Shown piece by piece: positions 7,661-17,086 of a stretch of DNA of 44,499 nucleotides. Source of the stretch: a virus. A model generated the notes under the pieces. That model worked only from the letters and a program-made list of their open reading frames with translations, made no database searches and was not told the DNA's origin. How positions within the stretch are numbered: position 1 is the first letter of the stretch; every line of letters starts with the position of its first letter. The translations under genes were made by a program, and so were the position numbers. The DNA is taken from positions 1 through 44,499 of the IMG/VR virus record IMGVR_UViG_3300043446_000275; one strand, given 5' to 3'.

Positions 7661-10369
7661 TTACCCAAATGAAAACAAATCGTCAAATGTTGATTTAACA
7701 TCGATGTTGCTCTTAATGTCCCATTCAAGGACACCGAGTAAGTTCTCAACCTTTTCATCAACAAGTGTTGATTCCATAGCATCATCATCAAATGGTAAGT
7801 CTTTGAACCATTGTGGTAATCGTAATTCGTCTGTTGGATATGCTACTGATGTGAAACCTAATGCGTTTGGCTTTAGTTTACAAACTACAATCTTCATACC
7901 ATCAACGATTTGCATTGAATAGTTGTCGCTGTGAACTCTGCGTAGATAGTTCCAATTGATAGCGGCTCTTGCGTGACCAACTTTACATACGCCTGTCTTT
8001 TCAAACACTTGTGTATGTTTGGTCAAGTTGTTAACACTCTTAGGTGAACCTTTAGTCCAACTATCTTGTTCAACCATAACACGCTTGAACTCTTTCACAC
8101 GCTCAATGACTTCCTCACGACCTTTACCTCTTTGTAGTACCATACTTAATACATCCATTAAGAATTCTTGTACATACTTTGGGGTATCTGCCCGTTTCAA
8201 GTCAAGACCCATAGCCTTGATATCACCGAGTTCACCGTCTTTATCTTTACGCTTACCCTCTTTATCAAAGATGTTGATAGCATAACGCTTTTTAACGATA
8301 AAGATAGCACGGTCACCAATCAGTTCACGACCTGCTTTGATAATCTCGCCATTCTTTCTTGGTGCATGAAATGCCCGTTCTAAGAATGCAGGGAAACTAC
8401 TATTAGCTTCGTCTGCGATTGAATCATACAATCCAATACATGTTTCTTTGTTCCAAACAAGTTCACCACTATCAATCTGAGGCTTCAATGTTGTGTATGC
8501 TGAGAAATAACATGAGTCAGTATCACCATAAACAATCGCTTCACCTTCGTGTGTATACTCGCCAGTGACAACACTATTGATTTGGCTCATCATATGTTTA
8601 ACAATCTGACGACCTGATAGTGTAACTGACTGACCGATGCGCTTATCATAGAAACGGCAGTGCTCATTCAACAATGCACCATAAGCTGAGTTCAATAAAA
8701 TCTTACGAACCAATTGACGCTTATCATAATACTCGTACATGTCTGTACCATACGCTTCTTTAGCCAACTTCTGTGTTGCTTTTCGTTCTGAGTACCAACG
8801 ACTTAGTAGACCTGGAATCACACCTTCTTTCTCGTAAGTAAAGATTGTGCCGTTCGCTGAAAGAATCCATGGCTTGTGACTATCAAAGACAAGTTTCCAT
8901 ATCTCTGCTGCCGACATTTCTACGCTACGACCATCTTCATAATCTAGTGTAAGCATAGTGCCACGCTCTTGGTTCATAATTGCTGTGTATTCCAATGAGC
9001 CAAACAAGTTTTCCCATAGAATAGCACCAGTCACATCATCGTCACCGTCTTTGTAATACTTCTTTTCTCGGGCGAGTTTAGCGCCCTTTTCTTTCATGTA
9101 CTGGTCTGTGAGGGTTTGCCTGACCTGAGCAACGATGGTCTCTGGCGCCATGTTAAGTGCTCTGATTGCTGATGGGTAGAGTGAGTTAATATCGACTGCG
9201 CCGACCCATTCGTGCATTCCTCTTTTCGGCGTAGCAACATAGGCACCTGCCGCTTGCTGTACATCTTCTGCATTTTCAACCTTTCGTTTTTTGTCTGGAA
9301 CTACTAAGCCTCTTTCATGTGCTTCGTTCATAATAGCCATTTCAATCATAGCTACTGAACCCATGACAGTGGGCATCAACACTGTATTCTCATGTGCTAG
9401 CGCATTCGCTAGTTCTAGGAATTTCGTCTTGCGATGAATCTTCACCAACAACATAGTATCTTGTCTGTTGTATTCAATAAACTTTTTAAAGTCTTTGTTA
9501 TACAACTGGTCAAGAGTACCTTCGTATGGCGTTTTGTTTTCACCAACTTCCATTTCACCGATAAAGTCTAACTTGTATGAATGGCGAGATTCATAGTTAT
9601 ACTTTTTGTAAAGTTGCAAATAGTCTAAGTGAATACGACCAATCAAATCGTATGTCATTTCAACTTTGCCGAATCGTTCATACTCACGAGGCTTAGGTAA
9701 CTGACCCAACAAACAGAATTTTCTTGTGTCATCTTTACTCATTACTCGTGTAACACGATTGACCATGTAGGGTATATCATAACCCTCTGAGTTCCAACCT
9801 GTAATCACATCAGCATCTTCAATCAACTGAAAGAATGTATCAAACATTTCCTTTTCACTACGGAAAAGCATACAGTTATCAAACTCTCTTACAATTTCCC
9901 ATGCTGTTTCATCAGTCATGTGTTTTGGTGGCGTGACTAATGTAACAAGGGTATCTAGCCAATCCAAATACATTGTGATTGCTGTTACAGGATTAAATGG
10001 ATCACTTGTAGGGCTGAAGCCTTTTACTGGATCAAAGTCTACTTCAATGTCAAAGAAACATGTGTGTAGTTTAGGAGGCTCTACACCCAAATAGTTTTCG
10101 CTTAACGCACGGAATACTACATTAACATCTGATTCGTAAAGTTGCTTACCAGAATGAATTCTACGCTCTTTTTCAAACTCAGTACGCTTGCGACTACTGA
10201 ATCTACTTACAGGTGTTCCGAACAAACTTCTTTGTTTGCCCTTAGGATCATCGTAATAAAAAACATAGTTAGCAGGGAATTCTTTATAGTGACGCTTGCC
10301 GTCATCACCGCGCTCTACAACATAGATGCGGTCTTCGTCCCTGCTATGAATAGCATCAATATATGACAT
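7661..10369 (-). CDS. 43: DNA polymerase, family B (gp43-like)
   Basis: The 902 residues are close to T4 gp43 (898). All key motifs are present: Exo I FFDIEVD (D107, E109), Exo II GWNSEGYDIPY (191-201), Exo III YNRQDTML (300-307), motif A VDINSLYPS (D393), motif B KILLNSAYGA (556-565) and motif C YGDTDS (614-619). It should therefore be an active replicase with proofreading. Its ATG overlaps the stop of the DsbA-like gene (TAATG). No intein or intron is visible. Confidence 0.97.
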   Translation of the reverse strand: MSYIDAIHSRDEDRIYVVERGDDGKRHYKEFPANYVFYYDDPKGKQRSLFGTPVSRFSSRKRTEFEKERRIHSGKQLYESDVNVVFRALSENYLGVEPPKLHTCFFDIEVDFDPVKGFSPTSDPFNPVTAITMYLDWLDTLVTLVTPPKHMTDETAWEIVREFDNCMLFRSEKEMFDTFFQLIEDADVITGWNSEGYDIPYMVNRVTRVMSKDDTRKFCLLGQLPKPREYERFGKVEMTYDLIGRIHLDYLQLYKKYNYESRHSYKLDFIGEMEVGENKTPYEGTLDQLYNKDFKKFIEYNRQDTMLLVKIHRKTKFLELANALAHENTVLMPTVMGSVAMIEMAIMNEAHERGLVVPDKKRKVENAEDVQQAAGAYVATPKRGMHEWVGAVDINSLYPSAIRALNMAPETIVAQVRQTLTDQYMKEKGAKLAREKKYYKDGDDDVTGAILWENLFGSLEYTAIMNQERGTMLTLDYEDGRSVEMSAAEIWKLVFDSHKPWILSANGTIFTYEKEGVIPGLLSRWYSERKATQKLAKEAYGTDMYEYYDKRQLVRKILLNSAYGALLNEHCRFYDKRIGQSVTLSGRQIVKHMMSQINSVVTGEYTHEGEAIVYGDTDSCYFSAYTTLKPQIDSGELVWNKETCIGLYDSIADEANSSFPAFLERAFHAPRKNGEIIKAGRELIGDRAIFIVKKRYAINIFDKEGKRKDKDGELGDIKAMGLDLKRADTPKYVQEFLMDVLSMVLQRGKGREEVIERVKEFKRVMVEQDSWTKGSPKSVNNLTKHTQVFEKTGVCKVGHARAAINWNYLRRVHSDNYSMQIVDGMKIVVCKLKPNALGFTSVAYPTDELRLPQWFKDLPFDDDAMESTLVDEKVENLLGVLEWDIKSNIDVKSTFDDLFSFG

Positions 10370-10629
10370 TAAAGAGTCTTACCCACTGTTTCCAAAATAG
10401 TATTTAACTCGTCATGTTCTTGGTTAGCTTGTGTGAGGCTTGCTTTGTGGGCAATACGAATTGCCTTTTTGAGTACAGAAGGCTTGACTTCCAATTCTTC
10501 TGCGATTGCTTTAATGGTGTCAGTCAAACCACCTTGCAATGTATCAATCTCGTGCATAACATTCATGCCTTCGTTGATAAGTTGGGTTAGTTTAATCTTT
10601 TGGTCACCGTTAAAAGTCTTTGCTGTCAT
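10369..10629 (-). CDS. dsbA: DsbA-like double-stranded DNA-binding protein
   Basis: An 86-residue helical protein with INEGMNVMHEIDTLQGGLTD, TIKAIAEELEVKPSVLKKAI and an acidic C-terminal helix. Proteins of this length and pattern (leading helix, then 'IAEEL.VKP..L.KAI') are annotated in T4-like phages as DsbA, which binds DNA at late promoters. The ATG follows TAGGAGATTT and is the first gene after the strong sigma70-type promoter. It is coupled to the polymerase gene by TAATG. Confidence 0.65.
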   Translation of the reverse strand: MTAKTFNGDQKIKLTQLINEGMNVMHEIDTLQGGLTDTIKAIAEELEVKPSVLKKAIRIAHKASLTQANQEHDELNTILETVGKTL

Positions 10630-10708: not shown

Positions 10709-11053
10709 TTAGATGTTTGTCGATATGACTTTGATATTTTGGGGAGGTACAGTTGTACTTACAGTGTACTCGTATTCAGCTCCGGGCGTGAATTTGCCTT
10801 CTAGTCCATTTGAACTAACAGCAAGCAATGCCAATGGTTCATCTTCTGGGAACTCATCACCTAACCAATTCATCAATGCGTCTTCGGCTGCGGCTTTGTT
10901 TGGGAAGAAAAACAAATTGGATTGTGTTTCTAGTTGAGAGGACCTTGCACCTATGCTTGGAACTAAACCTTTTGCCAGAATGGATTTCACATTACGGGCA
11001 GGTGTAATATGATAAAGGATGCTTGGTTGTTTAGTGAATTCATTTGCTCTCAT
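10709..11053 (-). CDS. ADP-ribosyltransferase-like protein with capsid-targeting-like N-terminus
   Basis: The 114-residue protein starts MRANEFTKQ, one of four MRAxEF starts in this block. The rest has the look of the ART/KptA-like fold: ILYHITPARNVKSILAKGL (cf. LYHGT...N..SIL..GL), then NLFFFPNKAAAEDAL (cf. 'IYFT......A..') and a late EYEYTV strand. Such folds move ADP-ribose from NAD to proteins, DNA or RNA. T4 Alt is an injected ADP-ribosyltransferase, so a packaged effector is plausible. It is much shorter than Alt, and a catalytic Glu is not assigned with certainty. Confidence 0.5.
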   Translation of the reverse strand: MRANEFTKQPSILYHITPARNVKSILAKGLVPSIGARSSQLETQSNLFFFPNKAAAEDALMNWLGDEFPEDEPLALLAVSSNGLEGKFTPGAEYEYTVSTTVPPQNIKVISTNI

Positions 11054-11222
11054 TTATCATTCTCTTTACTAATAATGCTAATTTCAACGGATCTTTATTA
11101 AATTGTTTCTTTAACAATTCAGCCTTCACATCGATGTTGGCATCTCTATCAAACAAATTGTCTGGTATATCTTTTAAATTGTCTCTTAGTTTACTGGAAG
11201 ACTTCGGGGTGTTGTTTGCCAT
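11040..11222 (-). CDS. Small hypothetical protein, 60 aa
   Basis: Starts MANNTPKSSSKLRDNLKDIP and ends in KDPLKLALLVKRMINESK. It overlaps the end of the zincin gene by 32 bases and the next gene by 14, so it is translationally coupled to both. Similar short proteins with 'FD.DPLKL..L.KRM' are, from memory, common in T4-like phages. No function is known. Confidence 0.55.
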   Translation of the reverse strand: MANNTPKSSSKLRDNLKDIPDNLFDRDANIDVKAELLKKQFNKDPLKLALLVKRMINESK

Positions 11223-11775
11223 AAATCTTTATGTACTTTCCCGCCATCATATCAGCCATCGCTTCGATAGGACTACCTGGATAGCTGTCTCCGTCTTTAA
11301 TCATGTTCAACTGTTGTTGTCTGTGGTGTACTAACTCATGGAATATAGTACGCATGATATCAATCAAGTTTCGATTCTCGATATAAACTAGAATCTTACC
11401 ATCACTAGTGTGCATACCTGTACGATGGTCTACTTGTGCTTGTTCTGTGTCTCTGCTGAATGTGAATTCAGGCATAGGCTGTTGCATATTCAATGTTTTG
11501 ATAGACCATTGAATGAAGTCTTTAATCTTTTGCTCGTCTTGAGGAGTTTCTACGCTCTCACCTAACTTTTTTTTATACTTCTTAATCCAAGTATCAGGTG
11601 TGTTGCCATACTTTTGAACAAACAAGTCATGTAGTTCTTTACCATCGATTCCGTGGTGTTTAGATACACGTTGCATAAGTGCATCAATTGCGTCATAATC
11701 TGTACGCTTCAATGTAGGAAGTTTCTCTGCTAGTTCTTTAGCAGCGGATTCGGATAAAAATTCTATGGCTCTCAT
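11191..11775 (-). CDS. Zincin-type metalloprotease with capsid-targeting-like N-terminus
   Basis: I start at 11775 (MRAIEFLSESAAK), 194 residues, because this gives the shared MRAxEF start and lies just after a late promoter. An 11-residue upstream extension is possible. The HELVH zinc motif is at residues 146-150 and a likely third ligand is E171 in SPIEAMADMMAG, the HExxH...ExxxD/A layout of gluzincins. L-S-E after residue 6 matches the T4 prohead protease consensus (L/I/V)-x-E. Likely a packaged, injected protease acting on a host protein; the target is unknown. Confidence 0.65.
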   Translation of the reverse strand: MRAIEFLSESAAKELAEKLPTLKRTDYDAIDALMQRVSKHHGIDGKELHDLFVQKYGNTPDTWIKKYKKKLGESVETPQDEQKIKDFIQWSIKTLNMQQPMPEFTFSRDTEQAQVDHRTGMHTSDGKILVYIENRNLIDIMRTIFHELVHHRQQQLNMIKDGDSYPGSPIEAMADMMAGKYIKIYGKQHPEVFQ

Positions 11776-11780
11776 ATTAG

Positions 11781-11788
11781 TATTTATC
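11781..11788 (-). promoter_or_regulatory. Late promoter box abutting the zincin start
   Basis: GATAAATA on the minus strand is followed by CTAAT and the ATG, a gap of five bases. No Shine-Dalgarno sequence fits between. In T4 the late start point lies about five to seven bases after the box, so the mRNA would begin at or next to the ATG. Confidence 0.5.
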
Positions 11789-11811
11789 ACAAATAGGAAA
11801 ATGCTCACTTT

Positions 11812-11889
11812 TGAGATTACGGTAGCGAATCGCTTTCTCAGGCCAGCAGCCGGCCCACACTAATAACGCAAAGGTCCTAAGGTAGTGTG
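11812..11889. ncRNA. Triple-hairpin element with 23S rRNA domain IV-like sequence
   Basis: Three hairpins follow each other without a gap: 11812-11840 (TGAGA/TCTCA outside, AGCG/CGCT inside), 11841-11855 (GGCC/GGCC) and 11856-11889 (CACACTA/TAGTGTG). The 20-base loop and the first three bases of the 3' arm of the third hairpin contain GGTCCTAAGGTAG on the plus strand, identical for 13 bases to the universally conserved bacterial 23S helix 69-71 region (I-CeuI site), preceded by ATAACG as in rRNA. The first hairpin also holds GGTAGCGAA, again as in rRNA but out of order. The element lies between the Bug gene stop and the zincin promoter. Which strand is transcribed is unknown. It may also serve as a terminator, but no U-run follows. 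Confidence 0.45.
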
Positions 11890-11892
11890 TTC

Positions 11893-12855
11893 TTAGTCCA
11901 GTAGATTTACTTGTTGAGATAGAGGAATCCATACTCCTCTTAATTTCTCAATACCTCGCATAAATCCAACTGGGTTTAATTCTCTTTCATCTATGAAAAT
12001 CAAATTGTCATCATAGTATTGTTTAATCTCACTACTACGCAATGCAGGAGTGAATGTCTTTTGATACCATTCAACGATTTCTTTAGGTGTGTTCGGTGGC
12101 AAAATCATTGCCCATGCAGCAAAGATATCAATGTGTGAACCACCTACTTTGATAGGTTCTACATTTGGCATACGAGCAAGTCTACGCTCACCTGTAATAC
12201 CGATTGGTTTTACTTTACCTGCTTGAATCAATGGCAATGCGATAGCAATAGGCATAATTCCAAACTCTGTACCAGCATCACTTGCTACGCTTGTAACTGC
12301 TTGTAGTGGACCAGGGAACTGAGTAAATTTAACCATGTCTTTGTTGCCCTTAGCTTTCAACATGAAATACTCGTATGTCATTCTATGTGCGCCGCCACCT
12401 AATGCAAATGTAATTGGCTTGTTTGTTGTGCGAACTAGTTCTGTCAATTCAGCAACAGTATTAATCTTGCTGTTACTGTTTGCTACGATAGTCAATGGAC
12501 TCTTGCCCATGCCAAATACTGGTGTGAAACTGTCGTACTGAAACTTCTTAATATCTTTCTGCCAGATATCGTTTGTAACGAATGTGCTCATATAGCTAGG
12601 AATAGCAATTGTATATCCGTCTGGCTTTGCTTCCATTAATGCATTCATAGCAACAACGCTATCGCCACCTGGCTTCAATTCAATAACAAATGTTGCATTG
12701 TTAGTTTTGTTTACAACTGCTGAAATAGCACGAAAGCCTACTTCATTTCCTGAACCGGGCTGATTGCCGATGATTACAGTAATGGGTTTAGTTGGTTCCC
12801 ATGCAAATGCACTAGTACAAACTAGTGATGCAATTAAAAATTTCAAAAATCTCAC
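11893..12855 (-). CDS. Bug/TctC-family periplasmic solute-binding protein
   Basis: The 320 residues start at GTG (AGGAG five bases upstream) with a clear signal peptide, MRFLKFLIASLVCTSAFA, with likely cleavage before WEPTKP. PITVIIGNQPGSGNEVGFR matches the Bug-family opening (kPi.livp..PGg..D...R), and later segments such as GKVKPIGITGERR and LPPNTPKEIVEWYQKTF also fit (GKl..lAvt...R, P.g.P..iv...). The length is typical. These proteins bind carboxylates or similar ligands, for the tripartite tricarboxylate transporter. They are very abundant in Burkholderiales. No permease genes are present, so it would have to work with host TctAB or as a scavenger/sensor. Probably a host-derived auxiliary metabolic gene. 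Confidence 0.88.
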   Translation of the reverse strand: MRFLKFLIASLVCTSAFAWEPTKPITVIIGNQPGSGNEVGFRAISAVVNKTNNATFVIELKPGGDSVVAMNALMEAKPDGYTIAIPSYMSTFVTNDIWQKDIKKFQYDSFTPVFGMGKSPLTIVANSNSKINTVAELTELVRTTNKPITFALGGGAHRMTYEYFMLKAKGNKDMVKFTQFPGPLQAVTSVASDAGTEFGIMPIAIALPLIQAGKVKPIGITGERRLARMPNVEPIKVGGSHIDIFAAWAMILPPNTPKEIVEWYQKTFTPALRSSEIKQYYDDNLIFIDERELNPVGFMRGIEKLRGVWIPLSQQVNLLD

Positions 12856-15048: not shown

Positions 15049-15939
15049 TACAAATACATTTGAACCACTAGAACCAATTTGTTGTTGTGCATCAGGGCTT
15101 AACTTACTTGTATCAAACTGTTGATATCCAAACTGTTTAGCAAATCTGTTGACTAACTTCTGATACAATGCACCGCGACTTTCTCCCTTACCACTGAATA
15201 CAATAATCTTTGGTTGATATCCTTGTAGATATTTTTGTATTGCTGCCATCACAGTAGCAAATACTCTAGGGGCATCTTGGTCGTTAGTAGCATCAAAATT
15301 ATCCATCTTACTGAATTCAATATCAGTTACATTATCTCTGACAGGAACAAAGTTGATATCAATATACTGTCCTTGACGGTCATATGCTCTTGCGTGAATC
15401 TCTTTAGGACCAAACTGGTCATCCCATTCTAAATTATAACCATTGTCAAATAGTTCATCAAGTTGATTCTCTGGCTTGTCATATGCTCTACGGTCTGTGA
15501 GAGAAAATGTCATACCATTCACTGAATCTTTTCTACTATACAAGTCCCAGTCAGGGAGTAGTCTTTTAATCATCTTGGCATACAGTGCGATACGACTATC
15601 TTCTTTTGCATTGAATGTAATTTCTTCTACTCTATCAAGTCCGTATTCTTTTAAGAATGCTCGGGTAATATCTACTGCTGTTGACATTACTTCTGCTGAA
15701 TTACCTGTACCAGTTTGTCCGAACAAGTCTAACTCATCAGGGTCTACATCAGGTTTTCTTATTAAACGAAATTGTATTTCCCACTTCTTAGGATTAGCAA
15801 CACCAGTAAACGCTTGCCAAAGATAATCTCTATTACCTACTTTGAAGAACGCAGATACTTCGTTAGTACCAAGGCGCGCCCACTCCCAGTTTTTCTTACC
15901 GGGAGCAAATACTTCAGTGATAAATTCACTTGCTCTCAT
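15019..15939 (-). CDS. Virion-type protein with two related domains and a capsid-targeting-like N-terminus
   Basis: Starts MRASEFITEVFAPGKK, with ITE matching the prohead protease consensus. After it, residues about 15-150 form a domain ending in EEITFNAKEDSRIALYAKMI, and residues about 165-300 form a second ending in KIIVFSGKGESRGALYQKLV. Both have the order strand, (A/G)K-E-S-R, then ALY.K helix, so the gene looks like an internal duplication. The ESR.ALY.K pattern slightly recalls the acetyl-CoA loop and helix of GNAT enzymes, but the fold is uncertain. The ATG overlaps the GNAT stop (ATGA). Probably packaged and injected. Confidence 0.6.
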   Translation of the reverse strand: MRASEFITEVFAPGKKNWEWARLGTNEVSAFFKVGNRDYLWQAFTGVANPKKWEIQFRLIRKPDVDPDELDLFGQTGTGNSAEVMSTAVDITRAFLKEYGLDRVEEITFNAKEDSRIALYAKMIKRLLPDWDLYSRKDSVNGMTFSLTDRRAYDKPENQLDELFDNGYNLEWDDQFGPKEIHARAYDRQGQYIDINFVPVRDNVTDIEFSKMDNFDATNDQDAPRVFATVMAAIQKYLQGYQPKIIVFSGKGESRGALYQKLVNRFAKQFGYQQFDTSKLSPDAQQQIGSSGSNVFVLRRSNPLSV

Positions 15940-16646
15940 TTTCCTGTCCAGACTGCCATTAACGTAGTTGTAGCATCATATCCATATATTTTGCTTAATG
16001 AGTTCTTAACATAGGGTTCCAGTTGACCGTTACCAGGGACGACATCAAACGCCCAGTAACTAGCATACTTGTTTTGTCCGAGGAAGCGGCCACCTAGTTC
16101 CATGACTTGGTCTATTGTTTTTTCAATATTCTTTTCATGTTTTGAACCCGGAACAGCAATGCTCGTGTCAAGTTGACGATTTTCTAGTTGTAGTATACCT
16201 ATAACTTGAACTCCTGGGATATGGACTAAACTTAACCAATTACGTCTGCCACCTGGGGTTTGAGCAGAACCTGCCATTAATGGGCGTTTCATAATAGAGA
16301 GTACGATACCGTACAATGCTTTAGCCAACCCACGACCACGATAATCTTCATCTACTGTGATAGTCTCTACTGTGAGAGGTTGTTGTTTATTGTACCTAAT
16401 TGGTAAATCCGAGTTTTCAAGTTCTAAAACAGCAATAGCATCTGTGTGATTTTTGTTAGGATCAACTATGAGTATGCGTGTGAGATAACCTGCGTTTTCA
16501 ATAGCATAAGCAAAGCCACTGCCGCCAGGTAAAGGTTTTAATGTTGAGGGGTTTATATTGTTATAGTCCTGCAATGATTCTTTGCCGCCGCCGTATTGAT
16601 TTGCGGGAATAGCTTCAATCTCGGTTAAAAATTCACTTGCTCTCAT
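15936..16646 (-). CDS. GNAT-type acetyltransferase with capsid-targeting-like N-terminus
   Basis: Starts MRASEFLTEIEAIPANQ, with LTE as the likely protease site. The GNAT core is visible at residues about 108-130: ETITVDEDYRGRGLAKALYG, where RGRGLA is the acetyl-CoA pyrophosphate loop. A long beta-prone tail follows. The start overlaps the Dps stop (TAATG). Likely substrate: a host protein or small molecule after injection. It is one of three consecutive genes (Dps, GNAT, duplicated-domain protein) with tight overlaps. Confidence 0.7.
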   Translation of the reverse strand: MRASEFLTEIEAIPANQYGGGKESLQDYNNINPSTLKPLPGGSGFAYAIENAGYLTRILIVDPNKNHTDAIAVLELENSDLPIRYNKQQPLTVETITVDEDYRGRGLAKALYGIVLSIMKRPLMAGSAQTPGGRRNWLSLVHIPGVQVIGILQLENRQLDTSIAVPGSKHEKNIEKTIDQVMELGGRFLGQNKYASYWAFDVVPGNGQLEPYVKNSLSKIYGYDATTTLMAVWTGK

Positions 16647-17086
16647 TACTCACGTTCTTTTTTAAGAATACTACGAATGAACCATGCTTTCTTAGCATAC
16701 AAGTCTTGTAGTTCAGCCATGTAGTTAGCAATACCCTGTTGACGCTCTTGTGTTGCTTGGTCAAACATTTCAACAACTAACTGTATCATTGCTTCACAAT
16801 CTTGCAATGATTCTGCAAACATCAATTCAGCACGAGGAATTTTTGTTTGGTCTTGAATGATACTCAATTCAGCATAACGAGTTAAGCTACCCGGAGTGTA
16901 TGCACCTAAAATTCTTACATACTCTGCGATACGGTCGATTGTCCCGCTTACATCACCATACAATGTGTCAAAGAATTCATGGTATTGAGGGAAGTCACTA
17001 CCTTCAATGTTCCAATGAAAGTTTTGTGATTTGATAGCAAAACTTTGTGTGCTTGCTAGTAATGTTTTTAGGCTGTCTGATAACAT
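16646..17086 (-). CDS. dps: Dps-like ferritin-fold protein
   Basis: The 146 residues contain the Dps signature SQNFHWNIEGSDFPQYHEFFDTLYGD (two close His, then H, D and D/E ferroxidase ligands between subunits) and DRIAEYVRILGAYTPGSL. Length and four-helix layout fit Dps, which forms a 12-mer that stores iron and protects DNA from peroxide. The protein lacks a Lys-rich DNA-binding tail. An AGTAAATA late-type box lies three bases before the ATG. Packaged with or expressed beside injected effectors, it might guard DNA or sequester iron. Confidence 0.85.
   Translation of the reverse strand: MLSDSLKTLLASTQSFAIKSQNFHWNIEGSDFPQYHEFFDTLYGDVSGTIDRIAEYVRILGAYTPGSLTRYAELSIIQDQTKIPRAELMFAESLQDCEAMIQLVVEMFDQATQERQQGIANYMAELQDLYAKKAWFIRSILKKERE

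Follow-up and report, generated by a model that had tools for sequence, protein, structure and literature searches.

The window analysed here, a stretch of 44,499 nucleotides that makes up positions 1 to 44,499 of IMG/VR virus record IMGVR_UViG_3300043446_000275, carries on its minus strand a member of what is almost certainly a new structured RNA family, non-coding and encoded by phages. The element is a new RNA class, for which we found neither a match in Rfam 15 nor a description in the literature searched, which included papers on relatives of phage PA5oct and on jumbo phages. The family is large, diverse and strongly constrained, and it is common to uncultivated giant phages and to the Pseudomonas phages PA5oct, MIJ3 and Paride; the retention of a single-copy RNA through so much sequence change speaks for a real job in infection. 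As to what this job may be, we put forward, as an explanation with about an even chance of being right, that the element is a 3'-end-derived, trans-acting, single-copy phage ncRNA.

The element in the window

The element consists of the following parts.

11799..11893, minus strand: whole RNA element, matching covariance model R2 over model positions 1-95 with 100.2 bits
11856..11889, minus strand: hairpin A, stem CACACTA/TAGTGTG, with the conserved CCTTAGGACC in its internal loop
11841..11855, minus strand: hairpin B, stem GGCC/GGCC, with the loop GGCTGCT that pairs with the 3' tail
11812..11840, minus strand: hairpin C, lower helix TGAGA/TCTCA, upper helix of 3 bp, loop ATTCGCTAC
11799..11811, minus strand: 3' tail AAAAGTGAGCATT, whose AGC(A) and AGT form the pseudoknot helix with the loop of hairpin B

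The original prediction had seen three adjacent hairpins without gaps, and these are indeed present, with arms at 11812-11816/11836-11840, 11841-11844/11852-11855 and 11856-11862/11883-11889. It missed the pseudoknot, formed in the window by TGCT at 11802-11805 with AGCA at 11845-11848 (plus-strand letters), so that the element reaches from about 11799 to 11893, beyond the 11812-11889 first proposed. The 13-base identity to 23S rRNA that had drawn attention to the site is also real: GGTCCTAAGGTAG at 11873-11885, a single exact copy within the window, equals the E. coli 23S rRNA from position 1921, and GGTAGCGAA (11821-11829), noted in the first hairpin of that prediction, likewise matches 23S rRNA (TTCGCTAC, antisense at 1930). 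In the sense of the RNA, the CCTTAGGACC of hairpin A corresponds to plus-strand GGTCCTAAGG and is antisense to 23S positions of about 1921-1930. Folded as a single sequence, the window element is unexceptional (z of -0.22 and +0.07), and the claim therefore had to be tested by comparison.

Recovery of the family

A 17-mer from the element, CAAAGGTCCTAAGGTAG, matched 78 IMG/VR stretches, about 74 of which share the whole 90-nt element between differing flanks. Looser patterns added many more copies, and the covariance models R1 and R2 recovered at least 198, aligned as A6 and A7. A chance match is ruled out by the complete elements present in about 74 of those 78 stretches and by the covariation described below. 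Loss of the structure in related phages had been named beforehand as the outcome that would speak against the prediction; related phages do conserve the element, and the proposed search of viral metagenomes for compensatory changes returned overwhelming covariation over the same set. The window element itself has the three covarying hairpins, the pairing of loop B with the tail, and an intercistronic site after a same-strand stop codon that mark the family.

No convincing match to the family was found in cellular genomes; one match in a Salinimicrobium genome (L232) was weak, lacked the structure and was judged to be chance. A search of the 4227 families of Rfam 15 gave no covariance score at the gathering threshold and nothing meaningful at relaxed E-values.

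The element is present once in 20 of 22 whole records and in all five further IMG/VR records, with record sizes of up to 524 kb. The two exceptions carry two copies each, G001 (524 kb) at C1:108412 and 513695 and G022 at C1:76943 and 266277; the copies of either pair have clearly diverged from each other, and both copies in G001 start immediately at a stop codon. A multi-copy or terminator repeat is ruled out by this copy number of one to two per genome, and the strong divergence of the G001 copies, together with the covariation of the RNA, speaks against a transposon-like element.

Fold, covariation and strand

Across the family, the RNA is 75-110 nt long and forms three hairpins and an H-type pseudoknot, made by loop B and the 3' tail and enclosing hairpin C. 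Hairpin A has a variable stem and the conserved CCUUAGGACC in an internal or hairpin loop, often with an extra inner stem, and all six of its modelled pairs covary in the family alignment. The arms of hairpin B, whose family loop is GGCUGCU, covary as well, with 98-99% of cells paired. Both short helices of hairpin C covary; its loop is AUUCGCUAC or one of the alternatives ACGCCA, GUCGUGC or CCGGGAAUCC, and it is followed by the 3' tail AAAGUGAGC. In alignment A7 (98 distinct rows), 92.1% of cells are paired, and compensatory changes on both sides are seen in 22 of the 25 pairs, those of the pseudoknot among them; there are 621 double-change cells against 212 in shuffles, and the covariation score of 0.589 (0.157 when shuffled) was reached by none of 500 shuffles. 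This signal is lost when the partners are slid by one column, and A6 (95 rows) behaves likewise. RNAalifold on a raw MAFFT alignment recovered only hairpin B, due to misalignment.

Both A6 and A7 were fitted to the covariance model, and two model-free checks were therefore added, swapping of the tails and counting of G-U against A-C pairs. Among copies with a non-canonical loop B, the pseudoknot scored 359 with each copy's own tail and 264.8 +/- 13.3 with swapped tails; examples of such compensation are GGCTACT/AGTAGCC (L272), TCTCCC/GGGAGA (L238) and CCCTTGA/TCAAGGG (L061). For the minus strand, G-U outnumbers A-C by 19:1 in loop-anchored stems without any model, and by 19:0 in hairpin B of the covariance-model alignments. 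This excess shows that the element acts as RNA and that its functional strand is minus, the orientation of the genes on either side. Of the two orientations that had been considered, it is thus the one running with the neighbours that holds a conserved phage RNA, and the idea of a plus-strand rRNA mimic is contradicted. The same counts weigh against a replication origin or other DNA-level signal, an extremely improbable reading that the single copy and the nearness to polymerase genes would suit, and the GC skew of two large contigs has no turning point at the element.

The hairpin-C loops fall into discrete types (UUCGCUA, ACGCCA, GUCGUGC and CCGGGAAUCC) that are swapped as blocks, GUCGUGC being found for example in L125, L126, L128 and L143; this block exchange suggests alternative partners or tertiary contacts. 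A subfamily (L237, L239, L276, L295 and L310) is marked by a long hairpin A, whose CCUUAGG can form pairs with a CCUAAGG further downstream inside the element.

Genomic setting

In the window, the element lies between the following features.

11893..12855, minus strand: upstream gene, TctC-type receptor (Pfam PF03401); the first base of the element falls within its TAA stop codon (11893-11895)
11781..11788, minus strand: GATAAATA, resembling a T4 late promoter by its sequence, between the element and the next ATG (11775)
11191..11775, minus strand: downstream gene for a protein starting MRAIEFLSES, with a HELVHH motif read in the sequence
10369..10629, minus strand: dsbA-like transcription regulator (PHROG 12534/639); a sigma70-type promoter stands before it at 10682-10654
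7661..10369, minus strand: family-B DNA polymerase (phrog_262), closest among cultured phages to those of Sinorhizobium phage Phosso, Agrobacterium phage Atu_ph07, XaC1 and RaK2 (42-48% identity)

The position just after a stop codon is general: in most of the 183 non-redundant copies, the element begins between -21 and +12 nt from a stop codon on the same strand, and the genes upstream fall into 67 protein clusters, including Dps-like, TctC, desaturase-like, nuclease-like and tail proteins (names mostly read from the sequences). Homologs of the TctC-type receptor, a host-like metabolic gene, are found in 14 of the 183 loci, in different phages (e.g. L048, L119 and L197). Promoter-like boxes are enriched after the element and not before it. 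A sigma70 promoter lies between the element and dsbA in 29 of 44 cases, and a T4-late-like TATAAATA-like box follows 48 of 136 other copies, as against 29 of 915 random positions. Upstream of the 183 copies, no promoter belonging to the element itself was found, and release from the mRNA is for this reason assumed.

We regard the element as probably embedded in a 3' UTR. The RNA would be made as the 3' end of the mRNA of the upstream gene and would either stay there or be set free as a stable, compact RNA; it may then work in trans, as a phage RNA gene in single copy that presents the invariant hairpin-A motif and the hairpin-C loop to a putative partner, protein or RNA. Action in trans, taken by itself, is to our minds an evenly balanced proposition.

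Wherever they were found in the IMG/VR loci, dsbA homologs (126 of 126) and the DNA polymerase (118 of 118) lie downstream on the same strand, at variable distance. This regularity would suit a regulatory leader or antiterminator of the dsbA-polymerase operon, which we nevertheless consider very unlikely: the promoter that often intervenes places the element outside the dsbA-polymerase transcript. Nor does the element lie in the 5' UTR of one recurring set of genes, as expected of a riboswitch; the downstream genes vary and a promoter is often found between. In the window, MRA-type genes separate the element from the dsbA promoter; the gene starting MRAIEFLSES is among those found between the element and dsbA-polymerase in a minority of relatives. 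Near-identical MRA(S/N/I)EF(L/I)TE-like N-termini occur in the window at 11028-11054, 15914-15940 and 16621-16647 and at the gene start at 11775, as if many proteins of this phage group shared an N-terminal tag.

The GC hairpin directly followed by a U-run that makes an intrinsic terminator was not found, a run of at least five T following the element in 20 of 152 copies; in the window, no minus-strand terminator was predicted at this site. The ten positions that follow the tail GUGAGC hold almost no G (0-10%; 152 copies). A stop-codon read-through signal was rejected, as the frames past the stop close at different places when read from the sequences.

Cultured phages and the choice between cis and trans

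In PA5oct, the element lies at NC_071039.1:115466-115564 (E 1.3e-5; 6.9e-6 in MIJ3, both per genome), and its sequence is 98-100% identical in related phages including Paride. It begins at the stop codon of gp295, keeps CCUUAGGACCG and AUUCGCUAC, and has a pseudoknot that reads GCUGU/GCAGC in the sequence. Directly 3' of it stands an intrinsic terminator, TAGGAGAC..GTCTCCTA-TTTTT; in MIJ3, too, a terminator of this kind comes after the element. The dsbA-polymerase genes are 100 kb away, which argues further against the leader and shows that linkage to the polymerase is not essential: the element moves independently of the polymerase operon, and it stands at the end of a transcript. Since these carriers can be cultured in the laboratory, expression, deletion, partners and self-cleavage are all directly testable. 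No convincing member was found in the relatives by polymerase, RaK2, XaC1, Phosso and Atu_ph07, or in PhiW-14, SCTP-2, Vibrio phage 2.275, T4, KVP40, HTVC008M, P-SSM2, CBB or Munch; an R1 match in XaC1 lay inside a CDS, and those in Vibrio phage 2.275 (E 0.9) and T4 (E 0.5) were rejected.

The main alternative is a cis-acting 3'-end or insulator element that ends, stabilizes or processes the upstream transcript and thereby prevents its reading into the promoter of the following unit, which is often dsbA-DNA polymerase. The operon-border position and the constant placement of dsbA and polymerase downstream in the IMG/VR loci also fit such a role, since the element stands exactly at borders of transcription units. 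Terminator hairpins occupy the same border before dsbA-polymerase in phages without the element, namely XaC1 and Vibrio phage 2.275 in a pattern scan and RaK2 by eye (the scan did not list it). However, genomes with many such borders have one or two copies, the scarcity of U-runs noted above is unlike a terminator, which moreover has no need of conserved unpaired loops or of a pseudoknot, and the PA5oct element is followed by an ordinary intrinsic terminator anyway. We see the insulator as somewhat unlikely. Action in trans is more likely than action in cis, given that the element is single-copy, is indifferent to its neighbours and in PA5oct ends a transcript that is terminated separately.

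Complementarity to 23S rRNA

Each of the 183 non-redundant copies has, as its longest antisense match to E. coli rRNA, a stretch of 10-17 nt, with at least 11 nt in 180 of them, a count that is partly circular because the searches were seeded on the motif; it is nearly always the hairpin-A motif that matches. Among about 179 downstream stretches taken as controls, nine reach at least 11 nt and most have 8-9 nt. A scan not seeded on hairpin A found CCTTAGGACC kept in 108 of 122 among the matches listed. In the 14 exceptions, the pairing to 23S rRNA is broken (the CCCTAGGACC group, L340 and L080) about as often as it stays G-U-compatible (the CCTTAGGGCC group, L310 and L084). Where hairpin A is long, the motif lies in an intramolecular helix, as seen in the sequences of L237, L239 and L310 and as predicted for PA5oct. 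The hairpin-C loops TTCGCTA and ACGCCATT match nearby 23S segments, and the other two of the four types, GUCGUGC (35 copies) and CCGGGAAUCC (three copies), have no rRNA match. A likeness to the 16S 530 loop sits in the pseudoknot loop, where unrelated pairs replace it in many copies.

These data bear on the proposal that the minus-strand RNA exposes a loop complementary to the ribosome and thereby touches host translation. The complementarity stands, with an antisense match of at least 10 nt in every copy. The exposure does not hold in the long forms, where the motif lies within a helix, and the role is weakened by variants that break or bury the pairing. Half of the loop types lack a match as well. 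In its full form, the ribosome idea takes the RNA to be antisense to 23S positions of about 1917-1933; hairpin C would face 1930-1938 or 1968-1979, and the target would be ribosomes or nascent rRNA. The universal match, up to 17 nt, its survival in the unseeded scan and the adjacency of the 23S segments matched by two of the loops favour it; the broken, buried and unmatched variants do not, and a chance rRNA match of one short conserved motif is not very unlikely. We consider this antisense reading quite unlikely, and give the same slim chance to a phage RNA that would act on the host ribosome by pairing of the hairpin-A motif around 1917-1933, helped by hairpin C in some lineages. If true, it could for example mean that assembly of new 50S subunits is blocked late in infection.

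Comparison with known systems

Pistol-type ribozymes are small and combine three stems and a pseudoknot with clustered invariant unpaired nucleotides. Like these and other small self-cleaving ribozymes, the element has about 80-100 nt, three stems, a pseudoknot and invariant unpaired nucleotides, and it is also portable, single-copy and free of gene association, so that it might be a new small self-cleaving ribozyme, with cleavage as a putative activity. We hold this to be unlikely: topology, conserved sequences and the exchangeable hairpin-C loop differ, the latter occurring as at least four unrelated sequences, which one would not expect of a catalytic core; a cleavage site is not apparent; and the known Rfam ribozymes (pistol, hammerhead, twister and others) gave no core or fold match even at E<=10.

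GOLLD is a phage-linked non-coding RNA with strong covariation (PMC12286853); compared with it and with other large phage-linked ncRNAs, the element is far smaller, shares no motif and has no Rfam match. The best sub-threshold Rfam match, at chance level, was the coronavirus frameshift element RF00507 (11.9 bits against a gathering threshold of 46, E 4.5), in which, as in our element, the loop of a hairpin pairs with a segment beyond a third hairpin inserted between them (H-type). Unlike that element, the phage RNA lies after and not before the stop codon, and the frames past the stop close variously. The 13 bp of plus-strand GGTCCTAAGGTAG are identical to what we take to be the I-CeuI target in 23S rRNA domain IV; the RNA strand of the element is the complement of this target, and no endonuclease gene was noted adjacent. 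Finally, the put and nut antitermination RNAs of HK022 and lambda are phage RNA structures that likewise occur once or twice per genome. They stand near promoters at the starts of operons, whereas the element described here stands at operon ends, with the promoter after it.
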